The position numbers and the translations under genes are program-made. DNA of 64,000 bases from Acidobacteriaceae bacterium (GTDB taxonomy: Bacteria; Acidobacteriota; Terriglobia; Terriglobales; Acidobacteriaceae), in assembly GCA_035944135.1 (NCBI GenBank), contig DASZBM010000010.1, forward strand, positions 682,001-746,000, given 5' to 3'. Below the pieces are notes generated by a model. The model was not told the origin of the DNA and did not search any database. It saw only the letters and a list, made by a program, of their open reading frames with translations. Below are positions 35,499 through 51,609 of the stretch, one piece after another (the stretch's first letter is position 1; the number at the start of each line of letters is the position of its first letter).

Positions 35499-35699
35499 CT
35501 AGTGAACCAGTCTGCTGAGATGCACGCCAAGATAGTAAGGCCAGATGATGAGGGCTAGCACAGTCTGCCAGAAGCCGAGATGAACGAAGCCGGCGGTGAA
35601 AAGCCATCCCGCAAACCACACTCCCCCGGTTGTGGTGTGATGACGGATCCGGACCCGATGACCTTGGTGGCTCTCTTGGGAAGCGTCTCGCAGGCTCAT
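35499..35699 (-). CDS. small membrane protein, last gene of the modification operon
   Basis: This 66-residue protein has a charged, His/Arg-rich N-terminus (about 24 residues) followed by two closely spaced hydrophobic segments rich in Trp (GVWFAGWLFTAGF and FWQTVLALIIWPYYLGVHL). Its ATG overlaps the stop of the upstream oxygenase gene as TGATG, strong evidence for translational coupling and for a real gene despite its size. Function is unknown. It might anchor or help export the operon's product, but nothing in the sequence proves this. Confidence 0.6.
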   Translation of the reverse strand: MSLRDASQESHQGHRVRIRHHTTTGGVWFAGWLFTAGFVHLGFWQTVLALIIWPYYLGVHLSRLVH

Positions 35700-36658
35700 C
35701 AGTTCAAGCTACCTTCGTAGGCGCTGTCCACGTAATGCAGAAGCAGCGAGGTCGATGTCTGGCCGCGCGGCAGGGGCTCACGCCAGTGCGCGACCGAGCA
35801 TCCGCGGTAGAGCAATGCGTCTCCTAATGCCTGGTAGATTTTGGCGGTGCCTTCCGAGGTTTCCAACTGGATGGGCCACGGAGACTCTCCATCAGGCTCG
35901 GGCGTGACGTCAATGCAGGTAGTGATGCTGTAGTCGCACTGCTCGCGATCACGGTGTTTTTCTAGATCCGCACCGCCCAGGTAAGAAACGAAGTAGGCGT
36001 ATGACGGCTTGAGAGCCACGTGGGCGATGTCACTGAGCGCGTATGTCATCTGCCGGTGGATGAAACGAGCCACGTCTTCGTTATGGGAGGCAAATCGACG
36101 GCGAACCTGCTCGTCGCCCACGGAGTAAAGGCCGCGGCGGGTGCGATTGCGATAGTAGCGGCGGAGCGCACCGACATGAAAGGGATGGATGAGATCCTCC
36201 ACGATGACGTAGCCGTGCTCGAATGTGGGGGCATAGTAGGAGACATGCTGCTGCCATTGCTGACGACGTCGAGCAGCGTGGTTAGGGCCGACGAGGATGT
36301 TCGCCTGCGTGAGCACCCAGCGAATGTGAAAAGGCAGATCTTCATTCAACGGCTGGCCCGGCGTCATCCGCGACAAGTACTCGAAGTATTCCTCCCCGAC
36401 CCAGAAAGGCCAGACGGCCAGTGTCGCCGGATCTTCTACCCAGACCATGCGCTCGCTCGGAAAGAAGCTGTCGGTGGAACCTGCGCGTTCGGCACGGTCG
36501 GCCGGCAGCGATCCGATCCATGAGAACCAACTGGATGGGTTGACGAGCGTAGTTCCGAACAGTTCAGGCTGGCGCAGCAGATGCGGCGGAGCCAGGTAGT
36601 AAGGCTGCTCGTCGAGTAGGCAGTGGTAGAGATCTGAGGGCAGACCATGCGGTGTCAT
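35699..36658 (-). CDS. 2OG-Fe(II) oxygenase (second hydroxylase)
   Basis: The 319-residue protein has a C-terminal double-stranded beta-helix. The iron-binding HxD is in EKHRDREQCDY, and the distal His and 2OG-binding Arg are probably those in CSVAHWREPLPRG, followed by SLLLHYV. The first 130 residues are a separate Trp-rich domain (WFSWIG, VWPFWVGEEYFEYL) of unknown role, perhaps for substrate binding. I chose the ATG at 36658 because it overlaps the stop of the preceding oxygenase gene as ATGA. Members of this superfamily hydroxylate proline, lysine, aspartate or small molecules. Pairing with a second hydroxylase and Pro-rich proteins in one operon suggests peptidyl-proline, by inference. 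Confidence 0.82.
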   Translation of the reverse strand: MTPHGLPSDLYHCLLDEQPYYLAPPHLLRQPELFGTTLVNPSSWFSWIGSLPADRAERAGSTDSFFPSERMVWVEDPATLAVWPFWVGEEYFEYLSRMTPGQPLNEDLPFHIRWVLTQANILVGPNHAARRRQQWQQHVSYYAPTFEHGYVIVEDLIHPFHVGALRRYYRNRTRRGLYSVGDEQVRRRFASHNEDVARFIHRQMTYALSDIAHVALKPSYAYFVSYLGGADLEKHRDREQCDYSITTCIDVTPEPDGESPWPIQLETSEGTAKIYQALGDALLYRGCSVAHWREPLPRGQTSTSLLLHYVDSAYEGSLN

Positions 36659-37272
36659 CGATGCAACCATCCATTCACGGTGAAGCGACTATCGGCAAAG
36701 TCGCGCGACGGGCACTCGACCGGCAGGACCTCGTGGAGACAGTCGCTGGGAAAGAAGACGATCTGGTTCTGCGAGGGATGGATGAGCTGATATGCGCCGG
36801 CGGTGACATTGGCCGCCTGATCGAGCTCTCCATCGTAAAGCTGCAGCTCGCCGCCATGGAAGGACTTGGGTTCTTGATAGAAGTAGTAAACGAAGGTGAG
36901 CACACGGGTGCGCACATTGTCGGAGTCGTCGTCTTTGTGCTGGCGAAAGAACTGGCCATCGTTCGTGGCGGTCAACTGGATCTCGAAGCGCGAGACCGGG
37001 AAGATCGGCATGTGCAGCCGAGCGAGAACGTGGGGAAGGTACGTCATGATGCGATCGGCGAACATGTCGTCGGCTGGGCCAAGATCGTAAAGCACCTGAG
37101 AACGGCGGTAGCTTTGATCATTGCGGTCATTGCCGCCTGCGTCGAGAACGCCCGAGTGGGTGAAGCGATCGCGATGGTGCAATGTGAATCGCAGCAACGA
37201 GGCCCACTCCTGGGCAACGAGGAACTCGTCGAGAACAACCAGAGGACTGCGCTGCTGCCAGCTTTCACTCAT
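36655..37272 (-). CDS. 2OG-Fe(II) oxygenase, prolyl 4-hydroxylase-like
   Basis: The 205-residue protein is a compact prolyl-4-hydroxylase-like domain. The iron ligands are His and Asp in FFRQHKDDD and the distal His in DCLHEVLPV; RFTVNGWLHR at the end carries the 2-oxoglutarate-binding basic residue. The LTFVYYFYQ and FHGGELQLYD strands match bacterial P4H-type proteins. I start it at the ATG at 37272, which has GGAGG five bases upstream; an ATG four codons earlier overlaps that ribosome site. It lies a few bases after the 1390-residue gene and overlaps the next oxygenase gene. Substrates proposed from context are the Pro-rich proteins encoded 9-10 kb upstream in the same operon. Confidence 0.88.
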   Translation of the reverse strand: MSESWQQRSPLVVLDEFLVAQEWASLLRFTLHHRDRFTHSGVLDAGGNDRNDQSYRRSQVLYDLGPADDMFADRIMTYLPHVLARLHMPIFPVSRFEIQLTATNDGQFFRQHKDDDSDNVRTRVLTFVYYFYQEPKSFHGGELQLYDGELDQAANVTAGAYQLIHPSQNQIVFFPSDCLHEVLPVECPSRDFADSRFTVNGWLHR

Positions 37273-37287
37273 CAGTTCCTCCATGCG

Positions 37288-40200
37288 TCAGTCGTAACCA
37301 AGGATAGCGGCGTAGATCAGACGTTGGGCCAAAGCCGGCGGGTCAGTAATCTTGCCGGAGGCCGCATCGGCGGGCAAAGTTTCGTACTCCCGAATAACAA
37401 TGCGGTATTGGTTTGGAGCAGGATTTTTGGCGAAGACAATGCTTCCGGACCAGAGCACAGCATTGGCTTCGCTTGGCAGGCCCGTATCTTCCGTGACAGT
37501 GACGTCGGTTGTGGGAGCGGGGATCCAGTCGAGATCGCTGGCAATGTTGAGCGCGCGAGTTTCGACGCTTATCTGCAAAGACGTGTCGACAGGCCCGTTC
37601 GGCGCAAGTCCACCGACAAACAGGCGGGCCGTCTTCGGATTGGCGGGGTTGATGCTGAGCACGGCGGAGCGATCAGGAGCGATTTGGGCGAAATCAGCAA
37701 GCGCTACGGGCGAGAGTTCGACACCAGCGATTGAGTGTGTCTGATAGCGGGCGACCGCAAGGCGCACAAAGGGACCGTAGTTGAACAGGCCACTGATTTC
37801 GATATCGCAGTACCAGAGGCTGCGGGTGGAGTCGTAAGCGACCTCATGGCCGGCGACATCGAACACAAGCGACGATTCCGGGATGGTGAGCCCAATGGCG
37901 GTGGCTACTGCATTGGGGAAGTTGCCGATCGCGGGAACCGGCTGGATCGTCAGTTCGCCGTTGTCCCATATGGGATCCGCACCCCACTGGGTGAAAAGAG
38001 ACTTGTTGGTCTCACGGGTCAGATAGTCGGGAGCGGGCGACTGGCTGGACCAGAGCATGACGCCGAGAAGCTCGTCCTGCCCAGAGGAGTACCAACCACG
38101 ATTTAGATAAACCCGTAGACCGTTGGAGTGACGGATCGCGCTCTTGACGTTGGTGGTCTCCTGCAGTTCCCAGCCGAAAGTGGGAACGACATAAGCGATG
38201 TCGGGAATTGTGGGACGTGCAGAGCTGGGGACATCAACGATGAGAGTGGGGCCCGTACGGGTGAAGTCCAAGCCGGCGGGAAAATACTCCTCGAAGCGGG
38301 AAGTACCTATCGGTGTGTATTCGATCCATCGATGGCGGGTGTCGTCGAAGCGATGGATCGGCGCGGCCGGGTCGGTAGTAGAGGGGTTGTCGACGCCGCC
38401 AAGCGTATCCTGCGGACCAGAGAACCAAAGCACATCAACCTGTGGGATGTAGACGCCGACCATGCGCGGGATGAACTGAGGTGGCGCCGGCTGAGTGGCG
38501 GATTCGGAGTAAACCGCTCCAGCGGTGAGGTTGGAGAGGTCAATGGTCTCGACCAGCTGAGAGGCGACGGCCTGCGTGGGAGCGGGCAGTGCGGGGTTGT
38601 CAGTCACCTCGAGCCAACGGCCGTGGATGTCTATTTTGGAGGTGCTGGCACCGTTGATCTGCATGCCGCCGAGGAGAACCGCTTCATGAAGGCCGACAGA
38701 CCTCCATGCGGTGATCGGAGTGAAAGCATTGCGCAGAGCCGATGCGAGGATCGGACTCGCTTCATCGTGCACAACGGGCAGTTGAATGAAGGTGGGTTCA
38801 CCGAGTGGCTGCTGCACGGCATGGACAAGGGTAAGCGAAAGAGACGGCGTGATCATTGGATAGCCGCCCTCGAGCACGAGCCGAGTAAGCTCGGCAATGT
38901 CGTCGCTGGCCGTCGAGAAACTATCGTCCGCGCCGGTTGTTAACGCGTTGAGTTCGATGGCTTCGAAGAATTCGCGGAGCCAGCCCCATACGCCCATGAG
39001 CTCCAAATCATCTGGAGTGAGATAACAGCTGAGCGGAACGCTGATGAGGCCGGCTTTCTGCAGGTAGACCGTGAGCACGCGTGAGCCGAAGTCCCATGCG
39101 GGCTGCCCGTTGCCCTCGGCGAGAACGATCCGGAACGAGGAAGCATTCGGCCATGGCTTTGTTCCGAAATCGACATAGGTCACCGATCCAGGGCGCACAT
39201 CGACGTCGGGGAGAGTTGCGTACTTGAGCCCGCTTTTGCCGGTGTGACCGCTGGTGTCGGAAGGCGTATTCGGCAGATTCCGGAATGCAGCGCCGGAGGC
39301 AAAGGGATCGGGGAAGTAGCCGACGGTGAGAGTATCGCCGGGCACGAGCGGAATCTTGTTCTTCGTCGGAAGCTCGAAGGCATCGCGTTGCGTAATGAAT
39401 TGGTACATCGCTGCGTTGCCGACAGGCTTACCTTGGCTATCAAGCAGGCCGTGCTCTTCAACCATCCGCTCGGCGACACGTGGAGGCGCAACGTGACGTT
39501 CATCGGTCTCGGATGTGATTTGAGTGTCGAGAGCGAGACTGCTGTTGTACGAGCGAATGACCAGGCGCGCCAGCGAACTACCTGCAGAGGTGGGTTGTCG
39601 CAGTGCCAGCAACGGGGACACCACGGGCTCGAAGCGCATGTACTTCATCTGTACACCGTTGGCCGGAGCCGCGAAGAGATTCGACGCCGAAGTCGTCACG
39701 GGCACGCTGTTGCCTGCGAGATCGACGGAGCGTGCGCGCAAACGGTATTGGGCGCCGAAGCGCAGCTCGGGTAGCGAGCCCGGAGAGACTGCAAAGGTAC
39801 TGACCATCTTGAATGGTGTAACCGGAGCATCGAGTGTCGGGTCCGAATCGAGAGCCTTCGCGGGATCGGCGCTGCGATTCAGTGGCTTGACGGGCCGTGA
39901 CACGCTCAGACTCCACCCGTTCCAACGCGCAACGCGCTCGTGGATGTAGACATTCTGCGCAGGCTGGGGGAGATCGTTCTTGATCGAGTACTGATCCGGC
40001 TTACGGGTCGGATCGTCTGCGGCCTGAGCCGCGGATAACTGCGTGAATCCCTCTTCGTCTACGTTCAGGACAATCTGGGATTGGGAGCCGAACTTGTATG
40101 TCGCCGTACGGCTGTGTAATGAGTGCCAGCGTTTCGTGCGCGACGACCAGATATCAATGCGGTAGCCGCGAACTAGATCCTGTGCGTTGTAAGGGGTCGG

Positions 40201-41460
40201 GTTGTTCGAGGAGAGCGAGTCGTTGAAGGATTGATTGTTGAGGATGGATTGCAGAAGACGCAGGCCATTTCCATCGGCCATGAGTGAAATGCCGGCGGAG
40301 CGGAGAGAGGGAAGAGTCTCATCCATGGCCTGGAGGTTGTCGTTGACCAGCAGATTCGCGACGTTGTCAGCCAAGCCCATAGCCTTCATCAGCGCGCCGT
40401 CGAGATCGACCTGCGAGAGGAAAAAGTTCTGCGCGGACATGGCGAGAAAACCCTTGAAGACATCACCCGCCGGATAGTTCCCCGCTGTCTGCGCGGCTGG
40501 TACCGCAGCGGGAGCGGCGCAGAAGGACGAAGAATCGCGCCAGTAAGAGGTCGGAGTAAGGCTGAAGGACGGGGTGATCTGCCAGTTGAAACCGGGGACG
40601 ACCTTGGAGACCGCGACGGATGCATAAGCTCCACCGGACGGCGAGGGAGGACAAAGCGAAGACGGAATTTCGAGATCAAACACTAGACCGAGCGCGCGCA
40701 GGATAGATGGGTACGAGCTGACAGCGGTCAGCGCGCTATGGAAATCAAGAGTCTTGTTGAATCCATTGGGCGGCGATGGCAGGGGTGGACGGTGGTGCGC
40801 CTTGGGAATGCTGTGAAAGAGCGCAAAGCGCGTGATCATATCCTGCGTGGAGGCCTCGTTCGGAGTCACGAGCGTAGTCGCGACGCCATCGGGGTTGCTC
40901 GTAGGACCTGAGAACGTGGTGTCCACAGCGGGCACCGTTCCGGTTTCGACTAATGCCTGCTGCAACTGCCACATCGTCTTCCGCTGCTCGGCCATGTTCG
41001 TGCCGAGGGTTGATTTTGCGCCGTTACGGAAGGCGAGCGGGTTGAAAACCCGGAACGGGCCTTCGCGCCCATCCTGCCTGCTGGATTGAAGGCTGAAGGA
41101 TTGGTAAGCATACTTGAGATAACCGAGTGCCTGACGGGTGGGATAGGACACGAAGACGCCATCGGAGTAAGTCGGGAACTGATAAGGCTCGACGAAGGTG
41201 TCAGGAGTGAAGATGGTCTGCCAGATGTCCGGACGAAGCACGGCTTTATCAGCGGAGACAGTCGCCTTGTTTGCACCGCAGGAGATCTGGAACTTGAGCC
41301 CGTGGGACTTAATCGACTGCGGCCACGTGAGCATGTCAGGGAAAGCGGCCAGTGTAGCTCCGTCATCAAGGCGCGGCGTGAGGTAGACGGACAGCTTGAG
41401 ATTGCCATTCTTGGCTTGACCGTTGGGGAGCGCCACGAAGATGAATGTCTGGCTGGCCAT
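37288..41460 (-). CDS. very large protein of unknown function (1390 aa)
   Basis: I do not recognise this family. The protein has no signal peptide or membrane helix. It is rich in beta-strand-like segments, Pro, Ser and aromatic residues, with few cysteines. Identifiable points are IFVALPNGQAKNG at the start, a mid-region with YRLRARSVDLAGN (like an Ig/FnIII-type strand), YFPDPFASGAAF (about 735) and a C-terminal part with FVGGLAPNG and YRIVIREYE. The size and strand-rich character suggest a multi-domain structural or binding protein. It starts 12 bases after the 1077-residue gene, and the first oxygenase gene follows its stop directly. This fixes it inside the operon, perhaps as a scaffold, carrier or surface product. 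Confidence 0.75.
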   Translation of the reverse strand: MASQTFIFVALPNGQAKNGNLKLSVYLTPRLDDGATLAAFPDMLTWPQSIKSHGLKFQISCGANKATVSADKAVLRPDIWQTIFTPDTFVEPYQFPTYSDGVFVSYPTRQALGYLKYAYQSFSLQSSRQDGREGPFRVFNPLAFRNGAKSTLGTNMAEQRKTMWQLQQALVETGTVPAVDTTFSGPTSNPDGVATTLVTPNEASTQDMITRFALFHSIPKAHHRPPLPSPPNGFNKTLDFHSALTAVSSYPSILRALGLVFDLEIPSSLCPPSPSGGAYASVAVSKVVPGFNWQITPSFSLTPTSYWRDSSSFCAAPAAVPAAQTAGNYPAGDVFKGFLAMSAQNFFLSQVDLDGALMKAMGLADNVANLLVNDNLQAMDETLPSLRSAGISLMADGNGLRLLQSILNNQSFNDSLSSNNPTPYNAQDLVRGYRIDIWSSRTKRWHSLHSRTATYKFGSQSQIVLNVDEEGFTQLSAAQAADDPTRKPDQYSIKNDLPQPAQNVYIHERVARWNGWSLSVSRPVKPLNRSADPAKALDSDPTLDAPVTPFKMVSTFAVSPGSLPELRFGAQYRLRARSVDLAGNSVPVTTSASNLFAAPANGVQMKYMRFEPVVSPLLALRQPTSAGSSLARLVIRSYNSSLALDTQITSETDERHVAPPRVAERMVEEHGLLDSQGKPVGNAAMYQFITQRDAFELPTKNKIPLVPGDTLTVGYFPDPFASGAAFRNLPNTPSDTSGHTGKSGLKYATLPDVDVRPGSVTYVDFGTKPWPNASSFRIVLAEGNGQPAWDFGSRVLTVYLQKAGLISVPLSCYLTPDDLELMGVWGWLREFFEAIELNALTTGADDSFSTASDDIAELTRLVLEGGYPMITPSLSLTLVHAVQQPLGEPTFIQLPVVHDEASPILASALRNAFTPITAWRSVGLHEAVLLGGMQINGASTSKIDIHGRWLEVTDNPALPAPTQAVASQLVETIDLSNLTAGAVYSESATQPAPPQFIPRMVGVYIPQVDVLWFSGPQDTLGGVDNPSTTDPAAPIHRFDDTRHRWIEYTPIGTSRFEEYFPAGLDFTRTGPTLIVDVPSSARPTIPDIAYVVPTFGWELQETTNVKSAIRHSNGLRVYLNRGWYSSGQDELLGVMLWSSQSPAPDYLTRETNKSLFTQWGADPIWDNGELTIQPVPAIGNFPNAVATAIGLTIPESSLVFDVAGHEVAYDSTRSLWYCDIEISGLFNYGPFVRLAVARYQTHSIAGVELSPVALADFAQIAPDRSAVLSINPANPKTARLFVGGLAPNGPVDTSLQISVETRALNIASDLDWIPAPTTDVTVTEDTGLPSEANAVLWSGSIVFAKNPAPNQYRIVIREYETLPADAASGKITDPPALAQRLIYAAILGYD

Positions 41461-41472
41461 GTAGTTGTGTCC

Positions 41473-44400
41473 TCAACCCGCGAATGCAAGGCAGTATTGG
41501 TTCCAGTCGGCGGCTGTCATAACGTCGGCGATTCCGGGGTCGCCGCTGCCGCTGCCAAAGCTGCGCTCGACTGAGACACTCACGGAGATGCTGAAGAACA
41601 AAATGCTGACAGAGATGGACAACGTCGCCCGTCCCTGTACTTTGTCGCCCTTCGCCGTGTGGATCCAGCTCAAGCTCAAATTGAGGTCGATGGAGATCGA
41701 GATAATTCCGAGCACCGAAACCTCGCCACCGATGTCGACGAAGCCCGTGAGAGTGGAGTTGGAACCGGCGAGCTTGAAGTAAATGCCGGCCATGATGTGA
41801 ACGCCGCCGGATGCGACGCCGAGGTCGATCGAGAATTCGCCTCCGAATTCGAGGGCACCCTCAACCATCTGGATGCCATTCGTCGTGAGGACCAGATGAA
41901 CGAAGCCACCGCCGCCCAGGCACTCGACGGTGAGCAGGAAAGGACTACCGCGGCTGCAGAAGGCAAATTCAAAACCCGGTTGACCACTGAGGTAAGGAAG
42001 ATCAAGGCCTGTAGTAATGGCAATGTTTTCGAGAGAGAAGATACCTATGGAAATGGGAGGCAGGCCGAGAGTGTAGGAGACCTTGATTCCCGTAGAGGTG
42101 AGATCGATCGATGGGCCGTCTCCCCCGAAGATGCCGGAAGGGAGGATATCCGCAAGCGTCTGGACAAAATGCAGTGGGCCGATGAACTGAATTGGCTTGC
42201 TGCCACCCAGCTTCACGCTGACGTTGGTCTTGGAGCCATTCTTGGAGGTGAATTCGATGGAGTTCATCGCGAGCCCAACAACTCCAAGGAGCGTGACTTC
42301 AAAGTTGCTGAGCTTCCCGGTAACAGTCGACTGGGAGGGCGAACCGTCGAGCGGCCGTGTGATCGTGGCGTTGAGGGTGAGCTTAGAGTTCTGGCCGAAC
42401 TGGTTGAAGACGATCTCTACCGGGCCGACGGAGTAGTCCGTCAGGTCGGGCTCCCATTTGACCTTGGTCACGACCTGAGTCGGGTTGGTGTGATTGGGAA
42501 GCGATTGTGAACGTATCTCGGGCGCGTTCTTGTTGGCGGGTGCGGTCTTCGTCACGGCGTCTATCGGAATCAAATTGCCGAGAGGGATAGTGCCGAAAAG
42601 TTGCGCGCTTATATTTAATCCGCCGAAGAAATCGGCCGGATTGATAACACCCGCCGCAGCATTATCAAGCGATCCGGCGACCATGCCTTTGCGCGCGGAG
42701 AGCCCGCTGATGTAGAAGCTGGGCGTGGCGAAGCCGCCGGCCTTGTTAGCACTGAAGACTACCGGCGGAGGGACGGCCAGCGAGTCAGGGCCGGTGTCAA
42801 TTTCAGCGAACACGCCAGCGTTGCTGTCCATTCCGTTCGTTAGATAGGCGGGATAGTAGGCAATGCTTATTGCGGTGGAGATTCCCAGGATTTCCTCGAT
42901 GCTGGGAACTATGACGTTCGCTGAGGAGAGAACGGGGATAAAGGGAACATCGCCGTCGTAAGAAGAGGAGAGGATCTGCGCATCGAAGAGCAGACCAGAA
43001 GTTTTGAGGATCGTGTCTCCGGCATTTGGGTCGGCGTACGCGATCTTCTTGCTGTGCACGTCGCACAGGCGCGCGTTACCGGCGTTGAGATAGTTGACCT
43101 GCACCGACGAGGCATCCGAGACTCCCGGTGTAGGGGTTCCGACATCAGTTTCACTCAGGCTCACAAAGATCATCGGAGCAAGAAAATCGATGGTCGCTCC
43201 GGTGAGATCAACGGCGGCCATGTGGAATTGAAAGGCTTGGCCGCCGACGTTGATCCAGAACGAATTGTCTGAAAAATAGCCAGGGTCACCCAGCTCTGGA
43301 GGCTCGTCGATATCAGGAGTAACGACAGTCTTGATGGTGATGTCTTTCAGGAAGGGCATCTCGCGGCCCTGGTGAAGATATAGGTCCGGCGTGTACGACT
43401 TCTCGATTTCACGCACCACGATGTACATGTGCTGTCGCATGTATGCGGTTACGGAGGAAGGATTCGATCCATTCGGGGGAACGTCCTCAGCGGGAACGAA
43501 CTTGCGCTCAGTGACCTTGACCAGCGAAGCGGCGTGACCGAAAGGATAGAGATAACCCTCGTAGACGACCTTGACGTAATGGTCTCGGCCCTCTGTGGCC
43601 AGATGATTCCATTCCGTCAGGTCGAGCTGAACGGTCTCGAACGGAAGAATGATGGGTGTGCTGGCAATCGCGGACTTGGCGGATTTTTTTACCGCGGCTT
43701 TCTTTGCGGCAGAGGTCTTTGCGGCCACTTTTCGTGACCCGAGCTGCTGTGCGGCAATCACGGGAAAGCGCCGAATCGGAATTCTGTAAGCCGGAAGCTG
43801 TGGCCAGTCTCCGCGGGAGCTCAGCCAGCCGCCGAGAGCAGAAAGAAAAAGTCGACTCGCCTGGATGGGGAGCGGCGTCCAACTCGTAGTGCCGCCGCCG
43901 GCTTGGATGACAAAGTAGCCGGTCGTGCCCGAGGTGAGGATAACGATCTGCGCACGGTCGCGCGGCGCAAGAGAAGAGAGGAACGGCGTCTTGTCCAGAT
44001 TGTGCGATGGCAATTCGCCATGGTCGACAAAGTCGGGAGACCAGATGGCGCGCAGAGGGATGGGTCTGGCCAGACTGGCTTCCTGCAGCTGCTGGGTTAC
44101 GCCGCTCTTTCCAGCGACATTCACAATCCTCGCAAGGCGGGTATGCCACAGCTCGGTGCGACCGGCGTGGGTAATCGGAACTTTCGCATTGACCCAGCCG
44201 ACTTTGGTGCTGGGCGAGAGCATGAGCCGGTAAGGAAGTTCAATCGAGGTCTGGAGCGCAGTGGGCTGCGGAATGGGAGTTGGCAATGGCTCGCCCTGCG
44301 CAACCGGAGAGACGACCAGCGTCAGCTTGGACCAGTCGAGCAGCGATGCCAACTGGAACGGAATTTTGCTGTTCTTGGGTAACTGGAATACCAGACGGCT

Positions 44401-44706
44401 TGGCCCGGAGATGCGGGCGCCAATCTCTCCAGCTGGAAGGAGAGTGTCATCGGTTGTGGGCAACGGAGGGGTTCCGGGCGGGACTTTGTTATACGGCGGC
44501 TGAGCAGTGATATTGCCGGTTTCGAAGAAGGCCTGTTCAGCGATGTTCTGGGGCGCGAAGGTGATGACCAGGTATGCCGGTTGAGAACTCTGATCCACAA
44601 CCAGCACTGGGTTGTTGGGATCAGTCACATCAAGCCGCAAATTCTGCGTTTCCACGGTGAGCGTGAGTAGGTCGTCGGGGCGCAGGAGCTCGAACGTGAA
44701 TGTCAT
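41473..44706 (-). CDS. very large protein of unknown function (1077 aa)
   Basis: This is also unrecognised. It starts MTFTFELLRPDDLL with no signal peptide. A Lys/Ala-rich linker (KKAAVKKSAKSA, about residues 335-355) separates a 330-residue N-terminal region from the rest. The last 300 residues alternate hydrophobic strands with Gly (IGIFSLENIAITTGLDLPYL, GGEFSIDLGVASGGVHIMAG, LFFSISVSVSV), a pattern like amphipathic beta-sheets of a barrel or solenoid. It ends near a Cys in NQYCLAFAG. It is 51 bases after the GalNAc-transferase-like gene and 12 bases before the 1390-residue gene. The two giants probably act together. Confidence 0.75.
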   Translation of the reverse strand: MTFTFELLRPDDLLTLTVETQNLRLDVTDPNNPVLVVDQSSQPAYLVITFAPQNIAEQAFFETGNITAQPPYNKVPPGTPPLPTTDDTLLPAGEIGARISGPSRLVFQLPKNSKIPFQLASLLDWSKLTLVVSPVAQGEPLPTPIPQPTALQTSIELPYRLMLSPSTKVGWVNAKVPITHAGRTELWHTRLARIVNVAGKSGVTQQLQEASLARPIPLRAIWSPDFVDHGELPSHNLDKTPFLSSLAPRDRAQIVILTSGTTGYFVIQAGGGTTSWTPLPIQASRLFLSALGGWLSSRGDWPQLPAYRIPIRRFPVIAAQQLGSRKVAAKTSAAKKAAVKKSAKSAIASTPIILPFETVQLDLTEWNHLATEGRDHYVKVVYEGYLYPFGHAASLVKVTERKFVPAEDVPPNGSNPSSVTAYMRQHMYIVVREIEKSYTPDLYLHQGREMPFLKDITIKTVVTPDIDEPPELGDPGYFSDNSFWINVGGQAFQFHMAAVDLTGATIDFLAPMIFVSLSETDVGTPTPGVSDASSVQVNYLNAGNARLCDVHSKKIAYADPNAGDTILKTSGLLFDAQILSSSYDGDVPFIPVLSSANVIVPSIEEILGISTAISIAYYPAYLTNGMDSNAGVFAEIDTGPDSLAVPPPVVFSANKAGGFATPSFYISGLSARKGMVAGSLDNAAAGVINPADFFGGLNISAQLFGTIPLGNLIPIDAVTKTAPANKNAPEIRSQSLPNHTNPTQVVTKVKWEPDLTDYSVGPVEIVFNQFGQNSKLTLNATITRPLDGSPSQSTVTGKLSNFEVTLLGVVGLAMNSIEFTSKNGSKTNVSVKLGGSKPIQFIGPLHFVQTLADILPSGIFGGDGPSIDLTSTGIKVSYTLGLPPISIGIFSLENIAITTGLDLPYLSGQPGFEFAFCSRGSPFLLTVECLGGGGFVHLVLTTNGIQMVEGALEFGGEFSIDLGVASGGVHIMAGIYFKLAGSNSTLTGFVDIGGEVSVLGIISISIDLNLSLSWIHTAKGDKVQGRATLSISVSILFFSISVSVSVERSFGSGSGDPGIADVMTAADWNQYCLAFAG

Positions 44707-44757: not shown

Positions 44758-45696
44758 TCAAATGATCTCGCCACCGGCCTGGTCTTTGATTCCGAAGTAA
44801 TCCACGAGCCAGGCAAATGACCGTTTATGTTGCGACTCCAGATAGCTGCGGCGCTGCCAGACATCGCTGGTATTGACCCGCTGCAAGGCCGCCTGGAAAT
44901 GCTCCGGGAACGTGCGGGAGAAATAACGCAACATCTGCATGCATCCGAGCTCGCTGAGGTAAAGAAAGCCGAACCGCAGGCAGTTGTGTACCCAGAAGGG
45001 CCTCACATTGCTGATGAATTCGCGGAGTTGCTCTTTGGGCTTGAACTCGTGCTCGACCTGCAGGCCCTCAGCGACGACGACCTCCGCGCCATGCAGCCAG
45101 GCCCGGATGCTGAACTCCGGCTCTCCCGCGCCGTAAAGGATCATTCCCGAGTCATATCCACCAAGGCGTTCGAAGAGCTCTTTGGGGATGACGGTGCCGT
45201 GGCTTGGAGCGACCGGGACATACGCGAGGCCGTCCACGGGACCGTAATTCCAGGTGATGCCCATTAAGGGCACTATCAGGTCACAGCCATAACCGCGAAA
45301 GATCGAGCCCTTCTGCGTAGTTGTTCCGGACAGAATCCGGTCCGGACGGATGTACTCCATAACGAGCTCATCCCAGCCTTCGGAGAAGCGGACATGAGCG
45401 TCGGTGATGAAAAAGATGTCCCCCGCGGCCAGGGACGCCGTATGGTTGCGTGTGGCATCGATCCCGGAATGCTGGCTGAGTCGATGTATCTGCACATCGA
45501 TCTTCGGCTCACTCAGCAACTCGGGAACAGCAGCGACTAGATTCGCCGTTGTGTCATCAGTTGAAGCGTCGTCCACGATGACGAACTCCAGGCGCGCGCT
45601 CGTCCTGCGCGCCTGAGAGATAGCGTGAATCGTCTCCGCGATCCGGTTTCCCTCATTGCGCGCCGGAATGAGCACGCTGATATCGGGACGTGCCAC
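44758..45696 (-). CDS. GT2/GT27-like glycosyltransferase, polypeptide GalNAc-transferase-like
   Basis: This 312-residue GT-A enzyme begins SVLIPARNEGNRIAETI and has VDDASTDDT. Two motifs point beyond generic GT2. FFITDAHVRF has the Asp-x-His metal motif typical of polypeptide N-acetylgalactosaminyltransferases (most GT2 enzymes have DxD). GGYDSGMILYGAGEPEFSIRAW parallels the GalNAc-T segment GMDIWGGENLEISFR. Such enzymes add the first sugar to Ser/Thr of mucin-type proteins. The gene starts 3 bases after the stop of the Pro/Ser/Thr-repeat protein gene, an obvious candidate acceptor. The donor sugar and real acceptor are inferred. There is no membrane segment, so it should act in the cytoplasm. 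Confidence 0.85.
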   Translation of the reverse strand: MARPDISVLIPARNEGNRIAETIHAISQARRTSARLEFVIVDDASTDDTTANLVAAVPELLSEPKIDVQIHRLSQHSGIDATRNHTASLAAGDIFFITDAHVRFSEGWDELVMEYIRPDRILSGTTTQKGSIFRGYGCDLIVPLMGITWNYGPVDGLAYVPVAPSHGTVIPKELFERLGGYDSGMILYGAGEPEFSIRAWLHGAEVVVAEGLQVEHEFKPKEQLREFISNVRPFWVHNCLRFGFLYLSELGCMQMLRYFSRTFPEHFQAALQRVNTSDVWQRRSYLESQHKRSFAWLVDYFGIKDQAGGEII

Positions 45697-45699
45697 GGG

Positions 45700-46779
45700 T
45701 TACGCCTTTCTTGCAGACATGCTCGCGATGGCTGTGATTCCGGTGATCGCGGTCTGCGCCGTGGTAGACACCTGCGCGACGATGGCCACCATCGCTGTCA
45801 GCGTGGGGCAGCAGCAGTCGCTACCGGCCATTCCGATAAGGGACGCTGTACCAGGGCTTCCGGAAGTCCCAGGCGTGGTGCTCGATGGCGTTGTTCCGGG
45901 TGTGCTTGGGGTGCTCCCTGGCGTGCCAGGTGTGCTGGGGCTGCTCGGCGCGCTAGGGCTGCTTGGCGAGCTGGGGCTGCTTGGGGTGCTGGGACTGCTT
46001 GGGGTGCTGGGACTGCTCGGCGCGCTGGGGCTGCTTGGCGTGCTGGGGCTGCTCGGCGTGCTGGGACTGCTCGGCGTGCTGGGACTGCTCGGCGCGCTGG
46101 GGCTGCTTGGCGTGCTGGGGCTGCTTGGTGTGCTGGGGCTGCTTGGCGTGCTAGGGGTCAGAGGCGGGGTCGGTTTCGGCGAGCCGGGCGGTGTTTTCGG
46201 TGCGCCGGGTGGTGTTTTCGGTGCACCCGGTGCGGACGGCGTAGAGGGTGCGGACGGCGCCTTTGGCGAAGACGGGGTAGACGGTGCGGATGGCGCCTTC
46301 GGCGAAGACGGGGTAGACGGTGCAGAGGGCGCCTTTGGCGCAGACGGCGGCACACCCGAACCACCAGCGACCGCCGCGAGGATGTCAGCTTGCCTGCGTG
46401 GCAAGGGTGCTGGGATCGGTTGGGCGCTGATCCGAAAAGAGCTCTGAGTGAGAGGGTTCGCAACGGCAACCCTGGATGCGGATTTCGTCCCAGCGAACCG
46501 AAGCAGGCCGGCTGTTGCGCCGACCGTCGCGCTGGGCTTGGCGACTTGCGGCATAGGTTTCGGAACTGGCTTCGGCGCTGGTTTAGCCGCTGCTTCTGTC
46601 TTGGAAAGAACTGGTCTGGGAAGCGACTTGGCTGCGGCCGCCTTGGACAAGGCACCACCGGCGCCATGGGTGAGGCGAGCCACGGTAGTTTTCGTACCAA
46701 CGGCGCCATGAGACTTGGCGGCGCTGCGAGATGGCTTGGATTGATGGGCTGGATGCGACACGATCTTTTTGCGAGCCAT
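45700..46779 (-). CDS. Pro/Ser/Thr-repeat (mucin-like) protein with Cys-motif helical tail
   Basis: The 359-residue protein has a basic Ala/Pro-rich N-terminus without signal peptide (about 1-140), then about 175 residues of Pro/Ser/Thr/Ala repeats and a short C-terminal domain. The repeats include three APSAPSTPSSPK-like units, GAPKTPP units and about twelve STPSSP six-residue units, with Ser/Thr beside Pro throughout. This is the composition of mucins and hydroxyproline-rich glycoproteins. The tail has GSDCCCPTLTAMVAIVAQ, then a hydrophobic Ala/Thr helix ending ITAIASM; the same tail occurs in the next gene upstream. AAGGAG precedes the ATG. I infer that it is the substrate of the operon's hydroxylases and glycosyltransferases. 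Confidence 0.8.
   Translation of the reverse strand: MARKKIVSHPAHQSKPSRSAAKSHGAVGTKTTVARLTHGAGGALSKAAAAKSLPRPVLSKTEAAAKPAPKPVPKPMPQVAKPSATVGATAGLLRFAGTKSASRVAVANPLTQSSFRISAQPIPAPLPRRQADILAAVAGGSGVPPSAPKAPSAPSTPSSPKAPSAPSTPSSPKAPSAPSTPSAPGAPKTPPGAPKTPPGSPKPTPPLTPSTPSSPSTPSSPSTPSSPSAPSSPSTPSSPSTPSSPSTPSSPSAPSSPSTPSSPSTPSSPSSPSSPSAPSSPSTPGTPGSTPSTPGTTPSSTTPGTSGSPGTASLIGMAGSDCCCPTLTAMVAIVAQVSTTAQTAITGITAIASMSARKA
45941..46157. repeat. 18-bp tandem repeat, about 12 copies
   Basis: Imperfect copies of CTGCTTGGCGTGCTGGGG (plus strand) are arranged head to tail and encode the STPSSP units on the minus strand. Variation is mainly T/G and C/T at a few positions, changing Thr to Ala. Such arrays expand and contract by slippage. 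Confidence 0.9.
46231..46349. repeat. 36-bp tandem repeat, about 3 copies
   Basis: Copies of a 36-base unit containing GGCGAAGACGGGGTAGACGG, the outer ones partial, encode the 12-residue Ala/Pro/Ser/Lys units of the mucin-like protein. A pair of 21-base repeats (GGTGTTTTCGGTGC) lies just before them. Confidence 0.8.
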
Positions 46780-46950
46780 AGGTCAAACGCTCCTTCGAAG
46801 CACGTAACGTTTCGGGCGTTCGCGGACTTCCGGCCGATTACAGTTGACGAACTGCCGGGCTGAGATTTCGCTTTCCCTGGGAGTGCTGCAGGGCCCTCTG
46901 GCTTCTGCTTGTTTGTGGTCGATCCCGCGTTTTTGTGCGGAGCCCGATAC

Positions 46951-47733
46951 TTACTCGAGGCCTGCGATCGCCGTGATCGCTGTAAGAGCCGCCTGGGCCG
47001 TCGCGGATAACTGCGCCGTAAGCGCCACCATTCCTACCTCACACCCGCAGCATCCTCCGGGCTTGAGTGTCATGGGAAGACCAGGAACCTGCGTGAACAG
47101 AGTCGGCATCGCGGTGTAAACCTGCGGTTGACTGGCTGATTGAGGTGTGCCGGATGATGTCGCGGTAGATACCTGTTGGCTGCCCGGGACGGTCACGCTG
47201 GACGGCGTCGCGGGTGTCTGAGTGGAGGAGCCCGGCGTCACTGACGATCGAGGTACAGATGGCGTTCCTTGCGGCGTGCTGGATTGCGGCGACGGCGAAA
47301 GTGGTGCGGGTGAAGGAGAGACGGGAATCGGTCCGCCGTGTTGCGGTGCGACAGGTCCCGATCGTGGTGGCGTTTGCGGCGCAGGCTGTGGCCTCGGTGA
47401 GACGTGTACCGGAGCAACGGTTTTTGGCGTAACGGGACCCGGCGGCAAGTCGGCGGGAGTGGGAAACGCTCCACTACCTTCCGGTGGCAACAGCGTCCCC
47501 AATGTGCCTAGTTCCATGAGATCGGCAGCATTCCCGACAGCAGGTTCCGGTTGACTGGTGGTGCGAACGGGGCGGTCAGTGGTGAATGAACTCGCGCTGA
47601 TCAGCGCACGCATCTGCGCGTCGCTCAACTGGAGTGGCTTGCGAATCTGCGACGGATCATTTTGGAGGGCGGACAAAACTCCGCTGTCAGTTGCGGCAAG
47701 CTCGGCAAGTCTGGCAACACTCTCAAGACTCAT
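46951..47733 (-). CDS. leader-like N-terminus plus Pro-rich region and Cys-motif helical tail
   Basis: The 260-residue product has three regions. Residues 1-48 (ESVARLAELAATDSGVLSAL, ending QLSDAQMRALI) form a small helical domain resembling the Nif11/NHLP-like leader segments of some ribosomal peptide precursors. About 75-220 is Pro/Ser/Thr/Gln-rich and irregular. The tail has GGCCGCEVGMVALTAQ, then a hydrophobic Ala/Thr helix ending ITAIAGLE, clearly homologous to the tail of the mucin-like protein downstream. There is no signal peptide. I start at the ATG at 47733 because a promoter lies at 47773-47801 and longer frames read through it. It is a likely second substrate of the modifying enzymes. 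Confidence 0.7.
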   Translation of the reverse strand: MSLESVARLAELAATDSGVLSALQNDPSQIRKPLQLSDAQMRALISASSFTTDRPVRTTSQPEPAVGNAADLMELGTLGTLLPPEGSGAFPTPADLPPGPVTPKTVAPVHVSPRPQPAPQTPPRSGPVAPQHGGPIPVSPSPAPLSPSPQSSTPQGTPSVPRSSVTPGSSTQTPATPSSVTVPGSQQVSTATSSGTPQSASQPQVYTAMPTLFTQVPGLPMTLKPGGCCGCEVGMVALTAQLSATAQAALTAITAIAGLE

Positions 47734-47893: not shown

Positions 47894-48889
47894 TCACACA
47901 GATTCGCTGGCGTGTCGCTCTGGCGCTGCCAGGTTGAGCGCGACGATCTGCATGGCCGCATAGTGTGCTGCGTGTTCCTGCGCGGGGCGGCCCAACGGGA
48001 ACGCGCGCTCGAAAATCTCCAGGCACCGACCGTAACGCTCGTTGAATTCGGAAACCGTCATGCGATGGACAATGTCGAAGAGTGCCTCTGGGCTTCCTAT
48101 GTGAGCGTAGTCAAGGAAACTATCTTCAGAAAAGTCCTGATAGATGGAAGCTTGGCCGTAATAAATGGGAAGGCAGCCGCAATGAATGGCCTGCCATATC
48201 TTTTCCGAGCAGTAGTAAGGCACAAGGGAATTCTCAAAACATATGTTGAAGTCATATTGCTCGAGAATCTCGTACTTCGCGAGCGACCACGCGCCCAACC
48301 GGCTCTCGCCGCGGCTTACGCCCGGAGGCCAGTCCTTGCCGTAGACATCGCAGAGACCGGCGCGATGTCCAGCGATCGCCAGTTCATAGCGGATCTGAAG
48401 CAGATCGACCTTGTTGGCCCTGGCGACGACAGCCGGATCGCCCATACTCTTTGCGCCGGATACGATGACCGCTGTGCGATTAAGTCTTCTGCGTGGAGTC
48501 GCCGTGCATGAGTAAGGGTTGGAGCAGATGGACGAATAGAAGTAGTTGTTGAAGAACACCTCGCCGGAATGCAAGCTGATGGTACGGACGCGCTGGCCGC
48601 CGATGTTGGCCCACTTCCCGGTCAATGTCCAGTAGAACGGTTCGTGGGTCCAGAGCAGGTAACGTTTCGATGCGCCGAACGCGTCGATAAGCTCGTGCAG
48701 GAACCGTTCGCGATTACCTACTAAGACTGTGGCTTCTTCCGGCGATTCCACCAGCCTGACACCATACTGAAACAACACAGCGCGCGTGTGGTCCTTCTGA
48801 AAAATCGTGTGCCTGGTTTTCGGATGGACGTAAACGGAAACGCTCACGCTGAGTCTCCTTTTCGTGGGCCGTGAGCCAGATGCGCTCAA
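47894..48889 (-). CDS. GT10-like fucosyltransferase
   Basis: The 331-residue enzyme has a GT-B-like C-terminal half with CFENSLVPYYCSEKIWQAIHCGCLPIYYG (in two adjoining parts: the FENS...YCSEK block and the PIYYG block). This is the hallmark of alpha-1,3/4-fucosyltransferases (FENS-x4-YxTEK), with Ser-Glu-Lys replacing Thr-Glu-Lys. An N-terminal domain with LLWTHEPFYW completes the fold. GDP-fucose is the expected donor and a glycan on the operon's proteins the possible acceptor. The gene overlaps the upstream O-fucosyltransferase-like gene by 4 bases (ATGA). No signal or membrane anchor is seen, so it is cytoplasmic. Confidence 0.85.
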   Translation of the reverse strand: MSASGSRPTKRRLSVSVSVYVHPKTRHTIFQKDHTRAVLFQYGVRLVESPEEATVLVGNRERFLHELIDAFGASKRYLLWTHEPFYWTLTGKWANIGGQRVRTISLHSGEVFFNNYFYSSICSNPYSCTATPRRRLNRTAVIVSGAKSMGDPAVVARANKVDLLQIRYELAIAGHRAGLCDVYGKDWPPGVSRGESRLGAWSLAKYEILEQYDFNICFENSLVPYYCSEKIWQAIHCGCLPIYYGQASIYQDFSEDSFLDYAHIGSPEALFDIVHRMTVSEFNERYGRCLEIFERAFPLGRPAQEHAAHYAAMQIVALNLAAPERHASESV

Positions 48890-49893
48890 GCGCGCATGGA
48901 GCAGCTATCCATAGGGGAGAAGACAGACTCTGGCCATTCGCGCCACCAGAAGCAATTGGAACGCAAGTCGGCGGGCATGGCGATTCTTTCCCAGGTTGGC
49001 CCAGAGCTGCCGTTCTCGAGAATGCGCCCGTCGCGAAAGTCGATGCCGTCGGGACGCTGATTGTAAAGATAGAGAAATGCTTGGTTTTTGCCATTAAGTA
49101 GACGCTTGCGGTGAATGAAGCCTGTGAAGGTGCTGAACATCGTGCCGAGGAAGATCTCGCTCTCGGAGGCGATCAGCGCGGAGACGATGCCGATTTCGGC
49201 GCTGTCCATAGCTGGAAAAAACTCGCGAAACAGCGCGACATCGATCAAGCAATTGCGGGGGTAACATGCGAGGATTGGCTCGAAGTAGGCCGGGTCCATC
49301 TCATCCGAGTGGATCAGAAGAAAGCAATCCGCCGGAACATGAAAACAAATGGTTTGCGCCAGTTCTTCCGGAGTTACGGCCGCAGTTCGGTTATGGACCC
49401 TAAGAAAGTCGGCGCGGCGAATATGCACCGAGGCAAATCGGCCATACGTCCTTCGTATGTAACTGGCGATAGCGGCGGCGGTTCGCCGATAGGCGTCCTT
49501 GACTGTCAGCAGATAATTGCACGCGAACATCACGCGTGGATCGGAGGGCAGCACGTAGCTGTAATACCCCAGGGTGTTGCTATTGCAGTTGGAGATTACG
49601 GCCGAGCGATCTAGTTGCTGTAGTTCGCCACTTCCAATTTGGTGCGCGTGCAGGTCGGGCAGATACTCGCTTTCCACTTCGTGGAACGATCCAGTCTGGT
49701 AGGGATATGCGACGTCGATGAGATCTAGCAGAGTTAGTCCGCTTTCGCTGTTGAAGACCGAATGCAGTGGAGTGTTGAGAAGCAGGCGACGATTGGAAAG
49801 TACGCATAGTCCAATGGCCAGTTCAAGAGACATCAGGTTATTGAAGAACCCGACATGCCCACCCTCATAGATGTCGAACTTGAGAAAACGCAT
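48886..49893 (-). CDS. O-fucosyltransferase-like glycosyltransferase
   Basis: The 335-residue protein resembles the GT-B O-fucosyltransferase/alpha-1,6-fucosyltransferase group. It starts with a GGHVGFFNNLMSLELAIGL segment (nucleotide-sugar-binding Gly region) and has ASVHIRRADF, matching the HxRRxDF motif that binds the GDP-fucose phosphate. SESEIFLGTMFSTFTGFIHR parallels the C-terminal Ser/Thr-rich motif of the family. It is the first gene of the leftward operon and overlaps the GT10-like gene. Protein O-fucosyltransferases modify Ser/Thr directly, which fits the Ser/Thr-rich proteins encoded downstream. Acceptor and donor remain inferred. Confidence 0.8.
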   Translation of the reverse strand: MRFLKFDIYEGGHVGFFNNLMSLELAIGLCVLSNRRLLLNTPLHSVFNSESGLTLLDLIDVAYPYQTGSFHEVESEYLPDLHAHQIGSGELQQLDRSAVISNCNSNTLGYYSYVLPSDPRVMFACNYLLTVKDAYRRTAAAIASYIRRTYGRFASVHIRRADFLRVHNRTAAVTPEELAQTICFHVPADCFLLIHSDEMDPAYFEPILACYPRNCLIDVALFREFFPAMDSAEIGIVSALIASESEIFLGTMFSTFTGFIHRKRLLNGKNQAFLYLYNQRPDGIDFRDGRILENGSSGPTWERIAMPADLRSNCFWWREWPESVFSPMDSCSMRA

Positions 49894-50097
49894 GGCGGCT
49901 CACGATTGCGTTTCTAATTTGCCAGCGTGAGCTCGCTTCGATTGCTCGATTTCTCTGCTTTTGCGCTGCGGGTCGACAACGGTCCGCGCAGCCGCAAGAG
50001 CCGCTGGTCGACGATGAATTCCGGAGTATATACCACCCCTTCGTTACGGGCGAAGCTCGCGGCGCAAACGAAATGTCGTGGCGGATTCATTCTTCAA

Positions 50098-51609
50098 ATG
50101 ACGAATGGGATTATCATGCAGACCATGAAACGGCGACCTGCGCAAAAGCGTTCTCGCGGCGGGATTGCACCGCGCGTCGCGGGGCGAGATTCACGTGTAA
50201 GCTCGCCTTCTTCGTTTACGTTTGCCGACACACTTACGCCGCAGCGAAGCTCCAGCGTGCCGGATTCGCACCGGATTCGCGTTTCTTACTGCACGACATG
50301 CCACGGACGGCTGTGGCAACTTGCACAAACGTTATTCGAAAACCTGGATCGCCTGCACGAAGATGAAGAGATTGTCCTGCTCGACTACGGTAGTCCGGAT
50401 GGGCTGTCCCGATTTGTCGAATCCTCGCAGCGCTGCCGTGATGCGATGAACCAGGGGCGACTAACCTACGTTTACACCGAAGCGGAGAAACATCACTGCC
50501 CCAGGGCCAAGAATCTCGCTCATCGAATGGGCCGCGGCGACATCTTGGTCAACTTGGATGCGGACAACAGCAATGCGGGGATGCGCGCTGTTATCGACCG
50601 ACACTTTCCCGATCGGATCGATGATGTAGTCGTGCAGATGAATGATGGCGCGGCGGGCACGTTCGGTCGAATCTGCATTCCGCGATACTGGTTTTACACG
50701 CTGGGTGGATACGATGAAAGCTTCGGGCCCAGTGCCTACCAGGACCACGATCTGCTCAACCGCGCAGCGGCGAGCGGACTTCAATATATTTGGGCTCCTT
50801 CCGACACGCCGCCACCAATTTTCAACACGATCGAGGAAAAGGTCTCGAACACCGGCGCGGACGATTGGTACGCGATGCTCGCCGCGAATCGCGAGATCAG
50901 CGACAGGAACCTAAGCCAGGGTCGGCTCGTCGCGAATACCGAGGGTTGGGGTGAAGCAACCGTCAGGGTCAACTTTGGAGAGAGGCTGAGCCTTGCACCC
51001 ATTCTGCCGAACCTCATCTCCGTCGTACTTCGTGGTTCGAAGCGCCTCTCCCGGGTGAACGAACTGTTGGAACTATATAACCAGATGCTGTTGGTGGGCG
51101 AGATTCTGGTCGTCAACAATCATCCGCGGTTTCCGATCGAGAAGAGCGAGAGAGTCGATTCAAAAGTTACTGTGGTGAATGCGTCCGGATCTCGAAGACC
51201 GCTGAGCCGAGTTGCTGTAGCGGCGCAGGCGTCGTATCCAGCGGTCCTGCTCACTGAGGACAGGATTTTTTTGCCCGAGTGGACGCTGACTGAGTTGCAC
51301 AAGCACTGGTGGGCGGATCCTTCGATTCTGCATGGCGTGGTCTCCGATGCGCAGGTCCTCGCTGGATCGAGAAGAAGAGCTGCGCCCTGCGAGATCCTGT
51401 CGACTCAGGCAATGCTGACCACCGCATACGATTGCTTCCGCTCGCTTTGTTATGCAAATGACAGCGTGCCCCGTAGATCAGGAAGTCGTGGAGAAGATCT
51501 TCTGCTCTGTTCTGCGGTCACGAGCGTGGCGAAAAGGCCGAACATGGCCTATCGGTTGCCGGTGGAAGAGTTGTCTTCAGGCCGACACGCGGCCCACCCG
51601 GCGGCGTGA
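50098..51609 (+). CDS. two-domain glycosyltransferase (GT2 plus exostosin/GT64-like)
   Basis: The product is about 503 residues. After a basic N-terminal segment, residues about 60-270 are a GT2-type domain with VSYCTTCHGRL, NLDADNSNAG (DxD) and YDESFGPSAYQDHDLLNRA. A second domain (about 290-490) with ISVVLRGSKRLSRVNELLE, VVNNHPRFP, LLTEDRIFLPEW and RGEDLLLCS resembles the GT64 exostosin-like domain (with ED for the metal motif). Bifunctional architecture suits polymerisation or two-step extension. It is divergent from the fucosyltransferase-led operon across about 200 bases. The start is uncertain: ATGs at 50098, 50116 or 50125 all precede the domain, while the longest frame starts at 49927. 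Confidence 0.78.
   Translation: MTNGIIMQTMKRRPAQKRSRGGIAPRVAGRDSRVSSPSSFTFADTLTPQRSSSVPDSHRIRVSYCTTCHGRLWQLAQTLFENLDRLHEDEEIVLLDYGSPDGLSRFVESSQRCRDAMNQGRLTYVYTEAEKHHCPRAKNLAHRMGRGDILVNLDADNSNAGMRAVIDRHFPDRIDDVVVQMNDGAAGTFGRICIPRYWFYTLGGYDESFGPSAYQDHDLLNRAAASGLQYIWAPSDTPPPIFNTIEEKVSNTGADDWYAMLAANREISDRNLSQGRLVANTEGWGEATVRVNFGERLSLAPILPNLISVVLRGSKRLSRVNELLELYNQMLLVGEILVVNNHPRFPIEKSERVDSKVTVVNASGSRRPLSRVAVAAQASYPAVLLTEDRIFLPEWTLTELHKHWWADPSILHGVVSDAQVLAGSRRRAAPCEILSTQAMLTTAYDCFRSLCYANDSVPRRSGSRGEDLLLCSAVTSVAKRPNMAYRLPVEELSSGRHAAHPAA

Follow-up and report, generated by a model that had tools for sequence, protein, structure and literature searches.

Prolyl hydroxylation followed by glycosylation is best known from eukaryotes, and the hydroxyproline-rich glycoproteins of plants and algae are secreted. 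In a different group of modified products, the ribosomally synthesized and post-translationally modified peptides (RiPPs), core peptides usually vary. Here we describe a gene island in a 64,000-nucleotide stretch of an Acidobacteriaceae bacterium (assembly GCA_035944135.1, contig DASZBM010000010.1, forward-strand positions 682,001 to 746,000; the whole stretch is referred to as the window). It encodes two adjacent Pro/Ser/Thr-rich proteins, sub1 and sub2, which end in a common Cys motif and tail, together with glycosyltransferases, a 2-oxoglutarate/Fe(II)-dependent (2OG-Fe(II)) oxygenase, OxA, a probable second one, OxB, and two large proteins, Big1 and Big2. In PMC7864055, prolyl hydroxylation of Skp1 is described as enabling its glycosylation in the cytoplasm, and in PMC11980579, MYXO-CTERM proteins are described as having an N-terminal signal peptide. 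Among the matches listed, the open-access literature contained no description of a bacterial cluster of the kind reported here. The reading we favour, to which we give not quite an even chance, is that sub1 and sub2 would be scaffolds hydroxylated and glycosylated by the island, with the tail as a separate module for assembly or docking.

A conserved tail on variable low-complexity proteins

The original prediction held that sub1 and sub2 have a Cys motif and C-terminal tail in common while their middles differ in sequence but are both Pro/Ser/Thr-rich, and each part of this was borne out. The tails align without gaps at a BLOSUM62 local score of 89 (best of 5000 shuffles 60, mean 27) and are identical at 16 of 24 core residues, and the middles contain 23% Pro each. 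Outside the tails the two proteins score 180, slightly above the shuffles (maximum 174 in 300 shuffles), as would be expected for any two Pro/Ser/Thr-rich proteins. The same tail core was found in two proteins of G515, a genome of a second genus, and in one protein of G492, with per-genome E values of 9.4e-11, 5.7e-8 and 7.8e-7 (G- and L-numbers denote sampled genomes and fetched loci, and G000 is the window's own genome). The two G515 proteins are orthologs of sub1 (sub1', 38% identity, with leader, LLPPEGSG and tail in common) and of sub2 (sub2', 46% identity).

All Cys residues of all five tail proteins are confined to the tail motif, the last Cys lies 22-24 residues ahead of ITAIA, and the last nine core residues are near-invariant, whatever helix face they occupy. 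Beyond the core, sub1 ends in GLE, sub2 in SMSARKA and its G515 ortholog in SLGARRD. In the window's own genome the sub1 and sub2 tails have diverged strongly at synonymous positions (pS 0.77) and little at amino-acid-changing ones (pN 0.18); their likeness is therefore old and kept by selection, not the result of a recent duplication. The proposed pattern of a conserved tail on variable bodies thus holds across five copies, including that on the G492 body with 1% Pro, and, judged from sequence, the tail is a real, rare and conserved module on variable low-complexity bodies.

Pfam, NCBIfam and PDB were searched for a known domain, and none of them matched the tail convincingly. The Pfam lines, each for one of the five tails (Hydrophobin_2, E 0.0056; Inovirus_capsid, 0.11; FTCD_C, 2.7), were judged compositional, as were a membrane protein of 51 aa (E 0.034) and the designed-looking repeat protein THR1 (E 0.29), the only two lines that a PDB profile search gave up to E 1, and the tail as a known domain was rejected. 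Whole-protein library matches fall on the low-complexity bodies and far below cut-offs (an IgA-binding protein model for sub2, MSCRAMM models for the G492 protein).

A Cys motif followed by a semi-hydrophobic stretch, with basic-containing ends in sub2 and its G515 ortholog, is also what a CTERM-type sorting or anchoring signal of the MYXO-CTERM kind (Cys motif, hydrophobic helix, basic end) would look like. We consider such a signal quite improbable. Computed insertion energies of the five tails range from +1.8 to +3.2, the best N-terminal segments of the same proteins give +4.8 to +7.9, and accordingly neither a clear membrane segment nor a signal-peptide-like N-terminus was seen in any of the five; these energies come from our own script, which uses a Hessa-type formula with constants entered by hand in place of a dedicated predictor. 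Sub1, which ends in GLE, does not fit a basic end, and NCBIfam returned 0 families for the five tails up to E 10, the MYXO-CTERM model included. Anchoring, one of the roles first suggested, is disfavoured in the form of a membrane helix by the same insertion energies, all of which lie above +1.7, and by the N-termini.

Distribution of the tail

Within the genomes sampled, the tail occurs sporadically, as an accessory trait, and all three tail-bearing genomes belong to the window's family. A two-row tail profile matched 38 of 250 family genomes at E 0.1, but beyond the window only three places were clear (two in G515, one in G492), the next-best match (E 0.00144) being taken as chance. With a five-row profile, 16 of 397 order genomes matched at E 0.01; G000, G515 and G492 did so at E 2e-18 or better, and the remaining 13 at 0.002-0.009 (best 0.0022), again taken as chance. 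The tail was present in one of 45 genomes of G515's genus and one of 19 of G492's, and in the window's own genome it matched at the sub1 and sub2 places only. With one tail as query against 297 genomes of the phylum, the best match outside the own genome had E 0.0137; plasmids and phages gave no match at E 1, and two pattern scans of IMG/VR gave candidates, none of which was confirmed.

Four of the five copies, those of the window and G515, adjoin glycosyltransferases and two oxygenases, so limitation to such clusters, which was proposed as support for a recognition tag, holds for these four and fails for G492, where the enzyme set is not nearby. In G492 the tail gene is followed by a PRTase-like open reading frame (ORF) and then by one that weakly matches Stealth_CR2; neither match reaches its cut-off.

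These neighbourhoods bear on a somewhat unlikely alternative, in which the tail serves as a tag for recognition or export, bound by an enzyme or exporter of the cluster that thereby selects variable bodies. A conserved tail on differing bodies, with glycosyltransferases beside four of five copies, would suit a tag, the near-invariance of the last nine core residues is what a binding groove would be expected to impose, and a sugar-handling enzyme may adjoin the G492 tail too. A second reader of the tail, were it a tag, would best be sought among the genes next to the G492 copy. No exporter or protease was recognised in the ten cluster proteins scanned, several of which lack any family match. 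Big1 has no match in the G492 genome, nor do OxA, OxB or GT2 in the 36 kb fetched, which speaks against a tag tied to the machinery as a whole. The occurrence of the oxygenases elsewhere without the tail, described next, also speaks against a tag.

Pro-rich sequence, not the tail, accompanies the oxygenase

OxA has an HxD...H metal triad (H116, D118, H184) that is invariant in four sequences. Up to E 1, a four-row OxA profile matched 12 distinct sequences in PDB, eight of them at E 0.025 or better, namely DdPhyA of Dictyostelium (8.6e-8), three Tpa1 sequences (5e-5), 4iw3 (6e-5), OGFOD1 (6e-4), the PKHD-type Sbal_3634 (2e-3) and EGLN1 (0.025); the other four, at E 0.38 or more, were a DUF3829 protein and three PiuC. 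PMC7864055 gives 6T8M as DdPhyA and 4IW3 as PPHD. By these matches the best solved relatives of OxA are chiefly protein prolyl hydroxylases, and we infer prolyl hydroxylase activity for OxA itself.

In the 17 further OxB-bearing loci that were fetched, OxA was present in 13, and 12 of these 13 OxA proteins are extended at the N-terminus by Pro-rich repeats that usually follow a conserved domain. The OxA locus of G326 is cut by a contig end; in G345, G413, G316 and G408, which are without OxA, OxB is cut by a contig end or distant. OxA of G084 is likewise fused to Pro-rich repeats, and in G121 a separate 68-residue Pro-rich ORF adjoins OxA. Pro-rich sequence was thus seen at 16 of 17 OxA loci, fused in 13 and as a separate ORF in three (G121, G000, G515). 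Fused OxA genes (L148, L149, L151-L157, L159, L161 and L123) have an N-terminal domain with the consensus MTPKQILDSFSETLMQDERILS... and repeats such as PQPPSAPQPPS; for one example of this domain, neither Pfam nor NCBIfam gave a match close to cut-off. The fused repeats are a candidate substrate held in cis with the oxygenase.

The tail was not found in the 17 further loci (best E 0.68), nor in the stretches read from G084 and G121 (best E 0.45), whereas all five true tails scored E 7e-19 or better. As OxA and OxB recur tail-less beside or fused to Pro-rich sequence, it is the Pro-rich body and not the tail that tracks the oxygenase, and these family members speak against the idea that the oxygenases recognise their substrates by the tail.

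Pro-rich bodies could also be a coincidence of composition, with the tail proteins as unrelated bystanders that merely resemble an oxygenase substrate. A 60-residue stretch of 25% Pro or more occurs in 22 of 301 called genes of at least 150 aa, comprising 13 OxA genes, sub1 and sub1', and seven others (the genes come from the OxA/OxB loci, those of G492 and the window, and were called by a simple script that missed sub2 and sub2' by preferring overlapping ORFs). The seven others, and the G492 tail gene without the enzymes nearby, would be in keeping with coincidence; the conservation of gene order in a second genus and the presence of Pro-rich sequence at nearly every OxA locus are not, and we regard the bystander explanation as improbable.

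The N-terminus of sub1

The upstream protein, sub1, was initially described as beginning with a leader-like helical domain of the Nif11/NHLP type. A conserved N-terminal domain was indeed found, 46% identical in the G515 ortholog; the assignment to a RiPP leader fared less well and is suggestive only. Os1348 NHLP (E 0.012, 15.7 bits against a cut-off of 40) and Nif11 (E 0.09, 13.5 bits against 23.8) are RiPP leader families, and such families gave the sole Pfam and NCBIfam lines, all sub-threshold, while the ortholog's leader had no RiPP-leader line in either library. Among 24 genomes the leader was found at E <0.01 in G000 and G515 only, with two more at E 0.014 and 0.033, and it is present on two of the five tail proteins, sub1 and its ortholog.

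The sub-threshold leader lines and the oxygenases nearby are what would recommend a RiPP precursor, with the sub1 N-terminus as leader and the Cys/Thr/Ala tail as core peptide. Such a precursor is very improbable in our view, since the leader was seen on two of five tail proteins only and gave no RiPP-leader line in the ortholog, about 170 residues separate it from the Cys motif, the tail is strongly conserved where cores tend to vary, and no maturase or peptidase-transporter was recognised in the ten proteins scanned.

The probable second oxygenase and the glycosyltransferases

OxB has an HxD motif and later His (H239, D241, H295) that are invariant in 16 sequences. Counting the own genome, 3 of 237 genomes sampled from the phylum were found to encode it, as were 20 of 220 from the family. 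Its structure model has a mean predicted local distance difference test score (pLDDT) of 61.6 and a predicted template modelling score (pTM) of 0.65, and in structural alignment the first 24 of 31 rows were 2OG/Fe-dependent enzymes, including PHD2 and the collagen prolyl 3-hydroxylase P3H1, at Z 4.1-7.2, where by the tool's own warning Z <8 may reflect a common arrangement only. No Foldseek match was found at E 0.001, no PDB sequence match, and no Pfam family up to E 1; PHROG matches bear the name 'ferrochelatase'. OxB is a probable second 2OG-Fe(II) oxygenase by its motif and model.

The GT10 and GT2 assignments of two island genes are clear at the level of sequence families (Table 1). In 199 phylum genomes the GT10 gene had two weak partial matches besides its own, and the two-domain glycosyltransferase had no PDB match.

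A proposed pathway

In the reading we favour, OxA, probably with OxB, would hydroxylate prolines in the Pro/Ser/Thr-rich bodies of sub1 and sub2, after which the island glycosyltransferases, two of them fucosyltransferase-like, would add sugars to Ser, Thr or hydroxyproline. Both modifications are placed in the cytoplasm because the five tail proteins are without a signal-peptide-like start. The product would be an extended, O-glycosylated, hydroxyproline-bearing scaffold. The Ala/Thr/Ile stretch of the tail, taken as a helix and preceded by the only Cys residues of the protein, most likely would join scaffold chains, by helix packing and a Cys cross-link or metal, or would dock on a partner. 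Among these steps hydroxylation is the best supported, whereas glycosylation is suggested by gene neighbourhood and the role of the tail solely by its anatomy.

Several observations weigh against this reading. Disulphides need an oxidising place, yet no export signal was seen in the tail proteins. The coiled-coil part is weak: a heptad signal at least as strong as that of the tail arose in 1124 of 20000 column shuffles and is therefore not significant. The G492 tail protein has a Gly/Ser/Asp/Thr-rich body, and homologues of OxA, OxB and GT2 were not found in 36 kb of G492. Conversely, G330 has an OxA without Pro-rich sequence. The O-FucT-like match lies below cut-off, its five PDB hits, all POFUT1/2, having E values of 0.22 or more, and the OxB assignment depends on a motif and modest structure scores.

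A broader and more speculative proposal, which we hold to be rather less likely than not, is that the family makes cytoplasmic hydroxyproline-rich, fucose-bearing glycoproteins from an island of two oxygenases and multiple glycosyltransferases, in which a new Cys-helix module assembles or addresses the product and relatives hold the Pro-rich substrate fused in cis. If true, this would provide a small, testable bacterial system for studying how substrates of hydroxylation and glycosylation are selected. The tail would then represent a new portable module that could serve directly as bait for its binding partner, and the link between enzyme and substrate is easy to test with the cis-fused OxA forms.

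Organization of the locus

Transcription on the minus strand runs in the order O-FucT-like, GT10, sub1, sub2, GT2, Big1, Big2, OxA, OxB, and the features are collected in Table 1. In the 31 kb of G515 that were compared, the order OxB-OxA-Big2-Big1-GT2-sub2-sub1 is the same; GT10, the O-FucT-like gene and the two-domain transferase had no homologue there, and OxB instead adjoins a protein of 666 aa that contains a GT4-type domain (PF00534, E 9.9e-35) and weakly matches GT8.

Table 1. Features of the island, in window coordinates.
Feature	Position	Strand	Length	Remarks
OxB	35699..36670	-		Probable second 2OG-Fe(II) oxygenase; conserved HxD and later His; modest structure scores
OxA	36655..37284	-		2OG-Fe(II) oxygenase related to protein prolyl hydroxylases; PF13640, E 1.5e-19
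Big2	37288..41460	-	1390 aa	Without family match
Big1	41473..44706	-	1077 aa	Without family match; conserved pair with Big2 in several phyla
GT2	44758..45696	-		Family 2 glycosyltransferase; PF00535, E 9.4e-18; G515 ortholog, E 7e-131
sub2 (tail protein 2)	45700..46779	-	359 aa	Basic N-terminus, Ser/Pro/Thr repeats, CCC, tail
sub2 CCC motif and tail	45700..45816	-		Stop codon included; end point reckoned from Cys322
sub2 tandem-repeat arrays (three)	45932..46349	-		Periods 18/72, 21 and 36 bases; encode Pro/Ser/Thr/Ala repeats
sub1 (tail protein 1)	46951..47733	-	260 aa	Leader-like N-terminus, LLPPEGSG, Pro/Ser/Thr-rich middle, CCxC, tail
sub1 CCGC motif and tail	46951..47052	-		Stop codon included; end point reckoned from Cys228
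sub1 leader-like domain	47584..47733	-	50 residues
GT10 fucosyltransferase-like gene	47894..48889	-		PF00852, E 7.3e-9; PDB alpha-1,3-fucosyltransferase, E 4.6e-9
O-FucT-like gene	48886..49893	-		PF10250, E 5.2e-6 (below cut-off)
Divergent two-domain glycosyltransferase	49927..51609	+		PF00535 (GT2), E 4.2e-6; Glyco_transf_64, E 0.021

For sub1 the ORF list offers a 336-aa frame from 47961; the start at the ATG at 47733, which gives the 260-aa version, is supported by the G515 ortholog, which starts at the same MSL... sequence. Long plus-strand ORFs at 45625-46863 and 45656-46447 overlie sub2 and are not supported as genes, because it is sub2, on the minus strand, whose ortholog is conserved in G515.

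Big1 was found in 12 of 297 phylum genomes (own included) and at 8 further loci of other metagenome-assembled genomes (MAGs), and neither it nor Big2 had a family match in the libraries scanned. The adjacent pair occurs not only in the window's phylum but also in MAGs labelled Chloroflexi, Dehalococcoidales, Ignavibacteria and Proteobacteria; in Chlorobiota and Armatimonadetes MAGs, Big1 was found without Big2. Four Big1 relatives (L055, L056, L057 and L067) start, by eye, with a twin-arginine (Tat)-like RR motif. Since the Big1 model is poor (mean pLDDT 61.7, pTM 0.37), no fold is claimed; matches to outer-membrane barrels had TM-scores of about 0.1 to 0.28. Big1 and Big2 as a necessary part of the tail system were considered and rejected, as 21 loci (L053-L073) are without a homologue of OxA, OxB or GT2. 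The tail, too, was not found in these 21 loci (best E 0.084, against 7e-19 or better for positive controls), and Big1/Big2 are probably a separate module.

Two further neighbours were observed. A protein without Pfam match in G121 (L125:16548-17465) has a homologue beside the G515 tail genes (L098:2-1000, E 4e-36); it may represent a further modifying enzyme of the system. In G084 (L123/L124) and G121 (L125/L126), a convergent gene that by eye is Ser/Thr protein kinase-like lies directly after OxB.

Comparison with described systems

The first 45-50 residues of sub1 weakly resemble NHLP/Nif11 leaders but score below the curated cut-offs, and no RiPP machinery was recognised among the ten proteins scanned. 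Like MYXO-CTERM proteins, the tail proteins have a Cys motif near the C-terminus with a helix-like stretch behind it, and two of the five tails have a basic end; they lack the signal peptide, the clear membrane helix, the Arg-rich end and the profile match. Plant and algal extensins and arabinogalactan proteins resemble the island in that bodies of Ser/Thr/Pro repeats are combined with a prolyl hydroxylase and with dedicated glycosyltransferases. The repeat body of a hydroxyproline-rich glycoprotein is seen in sub1 and sub2 and not in the G492 protein. Unlike extensins and arabinogalactan proteins, the tail proteins have no signal peptide, the glycosyltransferases are of other families, and the proteins end in a Cys-plus-helix tail. 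The Dictyostelium Skp1/DdPhyA pathway is alike in that DdPhyA is the best PDB match of OxA. It differs in its substrate, Skp1 being a regulator with one modified proline, whereas the candidate substrates here, known from sequence, are repetitive and Pro/Ser/Thr-rich.

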